This document shows, piece after piece, positions 14,375 through 49,696 of a stretch of 64,000 nt of DNA (positions are counted from its first letter, which is position 1; each line of letters opens with the position of its first letter). Origin of the DNA: Melissococcus plutonius ATCC 35311 (GTDB lineage Bacteria > Bacillota > Bacilli > Lactobacillales > Enterococcaceae); contig NC_015516.1 of the NCBI RefSeq assembly GCF_000270185.1, positions 729,001 to 793,000 on the forward strand, given 5' to 3'. Made by a program: the position numbers and the translations under genes. The notes under the pieces were generated by a model that was given only the letters and a program-made list of their open reading frames with translations, made no database searches and was not told the DNA's origin.

Positions 14375-14509
14375 TTGAGAAATAAAAGTAGGAGCTACCC
14401 GCTTCTCGCCTTAGCAGACTTTGTCACTGGGCTAGATAGTAATTATTCATTTTTAGCAATTATGAATAAAGATAAGTGCGGGTTCTGTTATGACAGTACC
14501 TGTTTTTTT
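14375..14509 (+). promoter_or_regulatory. Structured infC leader with internal terminator (L20-leader-like attenuator)
   Basis: The leader ends in a terminator: stem 14481-14488 with 14493-14500 (one mismatch), loop TATG, then seven T. The word ACCCGC at 14397-14402 can pair with GCGGGT at 14478-14483. GCGGGT includes the first bases of the terminator stem, so the two pairings exclude one another. An inner hairpin TTATTCAT/ATGAATAA (14443-14450, 14462-14469) lies between. In Bacilli the same operon is controlled by free ribosomal protein L20 through leader attenuation. The architecture is seen here; L20 binding is inferred. Confidence 0.75.
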
Positions 14510-14572
14510 ATTATCAGTGCTTTTATTACAAGTAGTAAGGTTTCTCTTTAAAAAATTTGGAGGTGAATGACC

Positions 14573-24862: not shown

Positions 24863-25285
24863 ATGAAAATTGCTTTAATTGCACATGACCGTAAGAAAGA
24901 TTTGATGCTAAAATTAGTAACAGCCTATAAAGAAATTTTAAAAGATCATAACTTATATGCAACAGGAACAACGGGACAAAAAATTATTGAAACGACTGGG
25001 CTTTCTGTTCATCGTTTTAATCCTGGCCCCTTAGGTGGTGATCAACAGATTGGTGCAATGATTTCTGAAGACAATCTAGATTTAATTATTTTTTTGCGAG
25101 ATCCATTAGCTGCGCAACCTCACGAACCAGATGTAAATGCATTGATCCGATTAAGTGATGTGTATGAAATACCTTTAGCTACCAATATTGGTACAGCAGA
25201 AGTTTTATTGAGAGGATTACAGGCAGGTTTTGTTAATTTTAGAGAGATTATCCATGAAAATGATAATCGTCCAATCGCTTTTTAA
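24863..25285 (+). CDS. mgsA: Methylglyoxal synthase
   Basis: 140 residues. Converts dihydroxyacetone phosphate to methylglyoxal and phosphate, a bypass when phosphorylated sugars pile up. Motifs [32 protein letters not shown] (catalytic Asp60) and [14 protein letters not shown] are all intact. Slightly shorter than the E. coli enzyme. AAAGGAG site upstream. Its divergent neighbour msmK is a sugar-uptake ATPase under a likely cre site, which fits a carbon-flux theme. Confidence 0.96.
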
Positions 25286-25316
25286 CATTTTTGAACTAGC
25301 GATTGTTATTTTAATT
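25272..25316 (+). terminator. Weak terminator after mgsA
   Basis: 8-bp stem CAATCGCT/AGCGATTG (25272-25279, 25298-25305), an 18-nt loop and a T-rich tail. It overlaps both the mgsA stop region and the next promoter. Confidence 0.5.
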
Positions 25317-25331
25317 GCTATATGATATAGT
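25304..25331 (+). promoter_or_regulatory. folT promoter
   Basis: TTGTTA (25304-25309), 16-base spacer, TATAGT (25326-25331). The start site would be near 25338, just before the riboswitch. Confidence 0.65.
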
Positions 25332-25342
25332 CTAAATGAATA

Positions 25343-25450
25343 AACAGAGTAGAAAATAAAGCGTTAAGTGCTCGAAGGATGGGATGTTGCCTTCTTGACG
25401 AAGAATATTGTATCTATATATTCGCGGTTTTATTTTCGCATTCGCTGCAT
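25343..25450 (+). ncRNA. Tetrahydrofolate (THF) riboswitch
   Basis: The region carries the conserved THF aptamer words in order: GAGTAGA, GCGTTAAGTG, GGATGGGATGTTGCC, GACGAAG, GCGGT and GCATTCGCTGC. Spacing and order match the folT-leader aptamer of Firmicutes. It lies directly upstream of a FolT-type transporter, the normal target. The U-rich internal loop 25406-25424 is species-specific. Confidence 0.93.
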
Positions 25451-25461
25451 AATGATTTGTG

Positions 25462-25485
25462 TAGCAGCTCTAAAAGGAGATGCTA
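25462..25485 (+). promoter_or_regulatory. Ribosome-site-sequestering hairpin of the folT riboswitch
   Basis: TAGCA-G-CTCT-AAAA-GGAG-A-TGCTA folds with the Shine-Dalgarno GGAG (25476-25479) in the stem. GCTGC at 25444-25448, at the 3' end of the aptamer, can instead pair with GCAGC at 25464-25468 and open this hairpin. This suggests translational repression when THF holds the aptamer closed. Confidence 0.65.
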
Positions 25486-25486
25486 G

Positions 25487-26011
25487 ATGTTAAAAAAGAA
25501 GAGTAGGTTAGAAACAAGAATGGTTACGTTACTAGGCCTGTTGATTGCCTTAATGGTCATTTTTTCTCGTTTTATTACTTATGAAACGCAGTTTTTGAAG
25601 GTCGGTCTAACGTTTATACCAGAGACATTAACCGCAATGTTGTTCGGTCCATTTTGGACAGGAATTAGTTTAGCTGTTGCAGACATTGTAGGTATGTTAT
25701 TATTTCCAAAAGCTGCCTATTTTCCTGGTTTTACCTTAAATGCGTTTTTAACTGGTCTGATTTATGGTTATTTTTATTATAGAAAAAAAATAACCTGGTT
25801 ACGCACTATTTCAGCTACACTAGTAGTAACGATTCTTATTCATTTATTCTTAGTGCCTTTATGGTTAGGATTAATGTATGGTGTAGATCTGAAAAATTTT
25901 GTTTGGTGGGTGCCTAGAATAATTAAAAATCTTATTTTTGTACCAATACAAGTTATAATAACGTATTATCTAGGAAATAAAATTTCTTCCTATAACTTTT
26001 TAAAACGATAA
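25487..26011 (+). CDS. folT: Folate ECF transporter S component
   Basis: 174 residues, six predicted membrane helices. The ETQFLKVGLTFIPETLTAMLFGPFWTG segment is typical of FolT. It binds folate and works with the shared ECF energising module (EcfA, EcfA', EcfT), whose genes are not in this window. The THF riboswitch upstream confirms the substrate. GGAG lies 7 bases before ATG inside a regulatory hairpin. Confidence 0.93.
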   Translation: MLKKKSRLETRMVTLLGLLIALMVIFSRFITYETQFLKVGLTFIPETLTAMLFGPFWTGISLAVADIVGMLLFPKAAYFPGFTLNAFLTGLIYGYFYYRKKITWLRTISATLVVTILIHLFLVPLWLGLMYGVDLKNFVWWVPRIIKNLIFVPIQVIITYYLGNKISSYNFLKR

Positions 26012-26030
26012 TTTAATAAATGAAGATAAA

Positions 26031-26068
26031 AGAACAATAGATTTTTTAATAAATCTATTGTTCTTTTT
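26031..26068. terminator. Terminator between folT and the ABC exporter genes
   Basis: 14-bp perfect stem (26031-26044, 26051-26064), 6-nt loop and a T-tract on the plus strand. It may also end the convergent exporter operon. Confidence 0.88.
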
Positions 26069-49578: not shown

Positions 49579-49696
49579 GTTGTAATTGTGAGATGATTCT
49601 TTACAACTACAACCGCACAGAGTAAGTAATTAAGTGTAATAGGTCTATTACCGCTTAGGATGGCGAGTCTAAGTTTATGAAGGAGGTGCTCTAAGC
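49579..49696 (+). ncRNA. L21 leader of the rplU-prp-rpmA operon
   Basis: The 118-nt leader has the layout of the Firmicute L21 leader: a 5' hairpin (TTGTAATTGTGAG...CTTTACAACTACAA), then ACCGCACAGAGTAA, GTAATAGGTCTATTACCGCTTA, and GATGGCGAGTCTAAG just before the ribosome site. GTAATAGGTCTATTAC forms a perfect 7-bp hairpin. The family is thought to bind a ribosomal protein; this was not shown for this species. Confidence 0.7.

Follow-up and report, generated by a model that had tools for sequence, protein, structure and literature searches.

The leader of the folate transporter gene folT of Melissococcus plutonius contains a complete THF-I riboswitch aptamer, and comparative sequence analysis together with folding models indicates that this element very probably controls folT translation by strand exchange in a ligand-OFF manner. 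The 3′ strand of the aptamer's closing helix P1 is complementary to part of a second hairpin which hides the Shine-Dalgarno (SD) sequence, and two mutually exclusive helices with covariation in both compete for it. The best reading of the sequences compared is that the competitor of P1 is a helix of nine base pairs (R2), shifted in register with respect to the helix R1 (GCUGC with GCAGC) put forward in a preliminary description of the same DNA. A corrected and testable secondary-structure model is thus provided for the folT switch. It matters modestly; the class and the mechanism type were already known and the novelty is small. All positions refer to the stretch of DNA analysed, here called the window, which comprises 64,000 nt of the genome of the honeybee pathogen M. 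plutonius (Table 1). A stretch of 6 kb from the second contig of this genome matched four records only, with 100% identity to three M. plutonius plasmids and 86.7% to part of the fourth, in agreement with this identity.

Table 1. Features of the folT leader and its neighbourhood in the window.
Feature	Position	Strand	Basis or remark
Methylglyoxal synthase gene, 5′ neighbour of the folT leader	24863-25285		TIGR00160
Possible promoter, weak (TTGTTA, 17 nt, TATAGT; TG ahead of TATAGT)	25303-25331	+	ends 12 nt 5′ of the aptamer
THF-I riboswitch aptamer, complete	25343-25449	+	RF01831, 82.7 bits
P1 5′ strand CAG, partner of CUG 25445-25447 in the putative ligand-bound form	25345-25347	+	cmscan alignment; 159/159 cells standard in 53 distinct rows
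P4 hairpin, 19 nt in the window, variable loop	25404-25422	+	RF01831 alignment and comparison
Switch strand GCUGCAUAA: P1 3′ strand and 5′ arm of R2	25444-25452	+	minimum-energy fold; covariation
R2 partner UUGUGUAGC; 25462-25465 common to the 5′ arm of the SD hairpin	25457-25465	+	fold, covariation, per-sequence folds
SD-sequestering hairpin	25462-25485	+	-9.5 kcal/mol alone; covariation in the outer arm
GCAGC, R1 partner first proposed; possible, without covariation support	25464-25468	+	energies, register comparison
SD sequence AAGGAG, 7 nt 5′ of ATG (25487)	25474-25479	+	read from the sequence
folT, S component of the folate ECF transporter, 174 aa	25487-26011	+	TIGR04518, 142.6 bits (cut-off 60); PF12822, 50.7 bits (cut-off 30.7)
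Terminator-like hairpin 3′ of folT, detected on both strands	26028-26067	+	2 found versus 0.2 expected from shuffles

The founding paper on THF-I riboswitches is reportedly that of Ames et al. in 2010. These riboswitches precede folT in Firmicutes (PMC9881143, PMC6800512, PMC11477058), and THF is among the motifs mostly limited to this group (PMC3766115). The aptamer has a pseudoknot between L3 and J2/1 (PMC9881143, PMC11477058), and pterin binding at this pseudoknot stabilises P1 (PMC11477058). Riboswitches that exchange strands by means of a switching sequence in their first helix form a recognised group (PMC10907184). THF-II riboswitches (folE motif) are found in Gram-negative bacteria 5′ of folE and carry the ribosome site inside P1 (PMC9881143, PMC6800512). 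The passages of PMC9495176 examined contain nothing on THF riboswitches. The M. plutonius leader resembles the THF-I (RF01831) folT leaders in aptamer sequence and fold, in the controlled gene and in the P1 strand as switching element, whereas the exact helix R2 and its covariation were worked out in the present analysis. It shares with strand-exchange translational riboswitches the placement of one strand in two exclusive helices and a ligand-bound aptamer which would let the SD hairpin form; ligand and aptamer class differ, but the principle is the same. Accounts of THF-II describe the same ligand family and likewise control of the SD sequence, which lies inside P1 there and outside the aptamer in the window leader.

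A THF riboswitch had already been recognised at this site from the sequence, and the search with RF01831 confirmed it with 82.7 bits (gathering score 36; E = 1.3e-17). The match is full length, covering model positions 1-99 of 99, and is the sole one at E<=0.001 in the whole genome. In the printed alignment the capital-letter positions of the consensus are matched and the conserved letters for the L3-J2/1 pseudoknot are present. P1 is formed by three standard pairs (25345-25347 with 25445-25447), with A/C and A/A at the two outer pairs of the model, and the lower part of P3 contains two non-standard pairs. The latter would suit a decaying relic in which switching has been lost, yet with the high score, the matched consensus, an intact folT gene and both switch helices intact, decay is a highly improbable explanation. 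As judged from its sequence, the aptamer appears to differ from the known THF-I class in nothing beyond sequence variation. Upstream of it, the possible promoter of Table 1 belongs to a set of five promoter-like sites found, with 4.6 expected from shuffles. Two other RNA leaders were detected in the window on the + strand, namely an L20 ribosomal protein leader (RF00558) at 14380-14517 with 58.8 bits, barely above the gathering score of 58.7, and an L21 ribosomal protein leader (RF00559) at 49601-49680 with 66.2 bits.

The gene 3′ of the aptamer belongs to folate transport, in line with the known location of THF-I elements ahead of folate transport or synthesis genes. In the M. plutonius genome neither dihydropteroate synthase (PF00809) nor GTP cyclohydrolase I, the product of folE (PF01227), gave a match; among 14 control genomes the two models matched 13 and 11, respectively. 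With folC (TIGR01499) present at 435.2 bits, this pattern fits a reliance on folate uptake, and FolT is therefore probably the folate source of the cell. The switch would accordingly govern the probable folate supply of M. plutonius. Eight genomes of the window's family (G034, G043, G044, G045, G049, G051, G052 and G070) contain two THF aptamers each; where loci were inspected by eye, a FolT-like reading frame follows each of the two, which suggests that folT is duplicated there.

The hairpin 3′ of the aptamer, described beforehand as hiding the ribosome site, is borne out by the folding analysis, in which it pairs GGAG. Its outer stem joins UAGCA (25462-25466) to UGCUA (25481-25485) and its inner stem CUCU (25468-25471) to GGAG (25476-25479), the two being separated by a mismatch of G25467 and A25480. 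Among 53 distinct rows of the comparison, the outer arm shows 204 standard pairs in 265 cells and 21 cells changed on both sides, neither of which was reached in 1000 shuffles, a count which leans toward the hairpin as the rows were anchored on it. The inner stem never varies on both sides in these rows and is thus uninformative with respect to covariation. At eight loci of g17, a single genus of the family (L025, L028, L030, L032, L050, L051, L052 and L054), an extra small hairpin such as GGCGGCAGTTTCGTGTCGC stands within the loop of the SD hairpin, the outer arms being kept.

For the competing helix, two registers have to be weighed. The preliminary description noted that GCTGC (25444-25448) can pair with GCAGC (25464-25468), and this complementarity is exact. 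R1 as first written would thus free the SD sequence in the ligand-free state through five contiguous Watson-Crick pairs, which have -7.0 kcal/mol when taken alone and span a loop of 15 nt. The minimum-energy fold of the leader instead contains R2, in which GCUGCAUAA (25444-25452) pairs with UUGUGUAGC (25457-25465), including two G-U pairs and closing a loop of only four nucleotides. With -11.5 kcal/mol alone, R2 exceeds R1 by 4.5 kcal/mol. R2 and the SD hairpin are mutually exclusive because four bases of the hairpin's outer 5′ arm, 25462-25465, are part of R2. Fixed-structure energies for 25343-25500 were -23.6 kcal/mol for the core with P1 and SD hairpin, -24.3 for the core with R2 and -19.8 for the core with R1, where the Rfam core was held and the energy model includes neither pseudoknot nor ligand, so that relative values alone are meaningful. 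In this model the OFF state (P1 and SD hairpin) and the R2 state are predicted to be nearly balanced. The free fold of the whole leader, calculated with the pseudoknot-free model, does not reproduce P3 and P4 of Rfam.

THF matches are present in 102 of 105 genomes of the window's family (f1) and in 257 of 395 genomes sampled from the order. For the comparison 196 aptamers were gathered, 110 from the family and 86 from outside it among the matches listed from the order sample. In the register test, the switch strand was set by the end of the aptamer and the partner by the SD hairpin, which makes the test unbiased between R1 and R2. It comprises 149 rows (109 from f1, 19 from f8, 17 from f9 and four from f2). 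The 47 rows left out are the 29 of families f3, f4 and f6, omitted entirely because their spacing differs or they carry terminators, and a further 18, from f1, f2, f8 and f9, in which the CTC anchor or the SD hairpin was not located. Over the five core positions, 718 of 745 pairs are standard in R2 and 674 in R1. Separated by family, the counts for R2 and R1 are 542 and 525 of 545 in f1, 93 and 81 of 95 in f8, and 75 and 52 of 85 in f9; all five R2 core pairs are kept in 107 of the 109 anchored rows of the window's family, to most of which the R2 model is common. Only the four rows of f2 score in favour of R1, with 16 of 20 against 8 of 20, and there an offset of -1 likewise gives 16 of 20; by eye, CUGCAUA pairs with UAUGUGG in f2, in a register that differs from the anchored one by one base.

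Covariation separates the two registers more sharply. In 53 distinct leaders P1 is standard in 159 of 159 cells with 18 cells changed on both sides, and R2 in 287 of 318 cells, again with 18; for neither helix did any of 1000 shuffles reach either value. For R1 the corresponding figures are 216 of 265 and three, which 105 and 46 of the 1000 shuffles attained, and R1 is not favoured as the switching helix. The relatedness of the rows is not kept by these shuffles but is kept by sliding the partner along the switch strand, a test in which, over the same 53 leaders, offset 0 (R2) gave 91% standard pairs and offset +3 (R1) 82%, the remaining offsets between -4 and +5 giving 12-58%. Position 25467 is A in 37 of the 149 rows, which places a C/A mismatch in R1 (45x67) and leaves R2 untouched; a further C/A mismatch of R1 (46x66) occurs in ten rows. 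When switch strand and platform were folded for each sequence, the R2 register was adopted by 102 of 110 sequences in f1, 16 of 22 in f8, 14 of 22 in f9 and none of ten in f2, and the R1 register by none of the 164. A weighted scan preferred the CAG partner of R1 in 8 of 110 family sequences. Taken together, energies, slides, shuffles and per-sequence folds favour R2, and R1 as originally formulated is very unlikely to be the switching helix. The reading of a single sequence chose a plausible but wrong register, which the comparison settled.

It is also conceivable that R1 and R2 both form and exchange with each other, the platform being an ensemble in which the 5′ arm of the SD hairpin is engaged in two registers. 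Positions 25464-25465 and the switch strand are indeed common to both, and the window's family shows hardly any variation in either, but the difference of 4.5 kcal/mol would make R1 rare at equilibrium and a folding intermediate at most. We regard such an ensemble as unlikely, if less so than R1 on its own, and retain R2 as the competing helix.

Family f9 provides an instance of concerted change. CC(G/A/U) replaces CUG as switch strand in 15 of its 17 rows. In these 15 the 5′ strand of P1 has changed to match, reading CGG, UGG or AGG, and in 13 the R2 partner reads UGG, AGG or GGG. At L159 and L187 the anchored triplet is GUG, with a fitting triplet one base away by eye. Three strands, namely the 5′ strand of P1, the switch strand and the R2 partner, change together in this family. 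In the 14 distinct rows with an altered switch strand, standard pairs number 42 of 42 in P1, 69 of 84 in R2 and 40 of 70 in R1. In the R2 register, covariation supports an alternative pairing between the P1 strand and the 5′ arm of the SD hairpin.

The claim that the sequence by itself reveals the switch logic was too strong, as single-sequence complementarity is near chance. A model-free scan took, for each sequence, the best helix that the 3′ strand of P1 can form with the 60 nt following it and set this against dinucleotide shuffles. Among the 110 family sequences, 44, the window's included, had p<=0.05 and none had p<=0.005; elsewhere p<=0.05 was obtained in 2 of 11 sequences of f2, 3 of 4 of f3, 2 of 21 of f4, 0 of 4 of f6, 13 of 22 of f8 and 10 of 24 of f9. 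The complementarity of the switch strand in the window is thus only weakly beyond chance, and it is conservation across species that carries the argument for the switch pairing.

In the mechanism we propose, tetrahydrofolate or a derivative would bind the aptamer, which would keep 25444-25449 in P1 with CUG (25445-25447) held by CAG (25345-25347). The downstream RNA would then fold into the hairpin at 25462-25485, GGAG would be buried and folT would remain untranslated. Without ligand, the short P1 would be unstable, and the switch strand, extended to 25452, would pair with the R2 partner; as R2 takes four bases of the 5′ arm, the SD hairpin would be partly opened and the ribosome could load. 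The choice is probably made during transcription, because R2 would close once 25465 has been transcribed, when the polymerase has yet to reach the 3′ arm of the SD hairpin (25476-25485).

Predicted accessibilities are in agreement with this direction of control. While the aptamer retains the switch strand, opening 25474-25479 is predicted to cost 3.88 kcal/mol, against 0.69 kcal/mol once the strand is released; for 25476-25479 alone, and with a shorter 3′ end of the RNA, the values are 6.1 and 1.79 kcal/mol. By this measure the SD sequence is sequestered in the locked state. A predicted saving of more than 1 kcal/mol on freeing the strand is seen in 102 of 110 sequences of f1, 18 of 22 of f8, 16 of 22 of f9 and 8 of 10 of f2, and not in 20 of the 164. 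The predicted probabilities of being unpaired at 25476-25479 are 0.75, 0.62, 0.38 and 0.47 with the strand free and 0.69, 0.60, 0.26 and 0.31 in the whole leader. In the free fold, part of the SD sequence stays paired within a smaller hairpin (25466-25471 with 25478-25484), and because this hairpin can still form, the ON state of the window leader is predicted to be partly rather than fully open. The earlier statement that an alternative pairing frees the ribosome site therefore holds insofar as the 3′ strand of P1 can open the hairpin, while "frees" overstates the result.

Control of folT by transcription termination instead of translation would draw on the terminator-like hairpins with a T run seen by eye after the aptamer in f4 (L154, L189 and L193) and on one family member, L056 (G102), which also looks terminator-like by eye. 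In the window, however, the terminator scan gives no site between aptamer and folT, and the hairpin ends at the SD sequence with no T run ahead of the ATG; in L056 the scan did not report the hairpin either. Termination is thus a most improbable explanation for the window, for which we keep the translational switch. At L056 the SD hairpin itself seems, by eye, to have been turned into a terminator stem; scans of the platforms of L056 and L022 found no terminator, the reading of L056 being by eye alone. At L022 the platform motif is absent, and in L077 and L095 (g11, one genus of the family) R2 is broken (UGUUGC) at one or more of the five pairs. In these two, CAUUCG can pair with CGAAUG by eye, which would use the J2/1 strand and not P1. 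Because of the exceptions L077, L095, L022, L056 and f4, the expression platform appears, from the sequences compared, to have been exchanged during evolution while the aptamer was retained.

A finding which may be more novel than the window switch concerns a genus-level group of Enterococcus. In 14 of its 22 genomes (L097-L110; among them E. ureasiticus, E. ureilyticus, E. quebecensis, E. plantarum, E. caccae, Enterococcus sp. 5H and DIV0212c), the P4 loop holds 139-427 nt. Both halves of the aptamer are intact in all 14, with 61 nt in the 5′ half and 27 nt in the 3′ half followed by the platform. Because of the long P4, the RF01831 scores are low (29.1-49 bits, two below the cut-off), and the matches end inside the insert. 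For a unit of 121 nt taken from one insert, 17 genomes of the group have 10-67 matching sites each and the remaining five 0-3. All 14 split aptamers fall within the 17 repeat-rich genomes, and a repeat match lies inside the riboswitch insert in at least nine of the 14. At L106, the one insert-bearing locus examined in this respect, no terminator-like site was found. The literature search found no paper on THF riboswitches together with Enterococcus and none on inserts or repeats within riboswitch aptamers, and the ten best-ranked of 114 titles on Enterococcus repeats included none on this repeat of about 121 nt.

We lean slightly towards the view that the P4 loop of this Enterococcus group is a home of a dispersed tandem hairpin repeat and that the split aptamers, with up to 427 nt between perfectly kept halves, still switch, standard scans misplacing their 3′ end and scoring them low. 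If they are functional, a natural riboswitch would possess in P4 a port at which insertions are tolerated, the repeat array might tune folding time or stability, and the aptamers would be a measure of the foreign sequence that a natural aptamer can accommodate. Tandem copies with a period of 121-122 were seen in the two inserts examined, and the hairpin repeat of about 121 nt, often tandem, was observed in G090 and its relatives (L208-L219).
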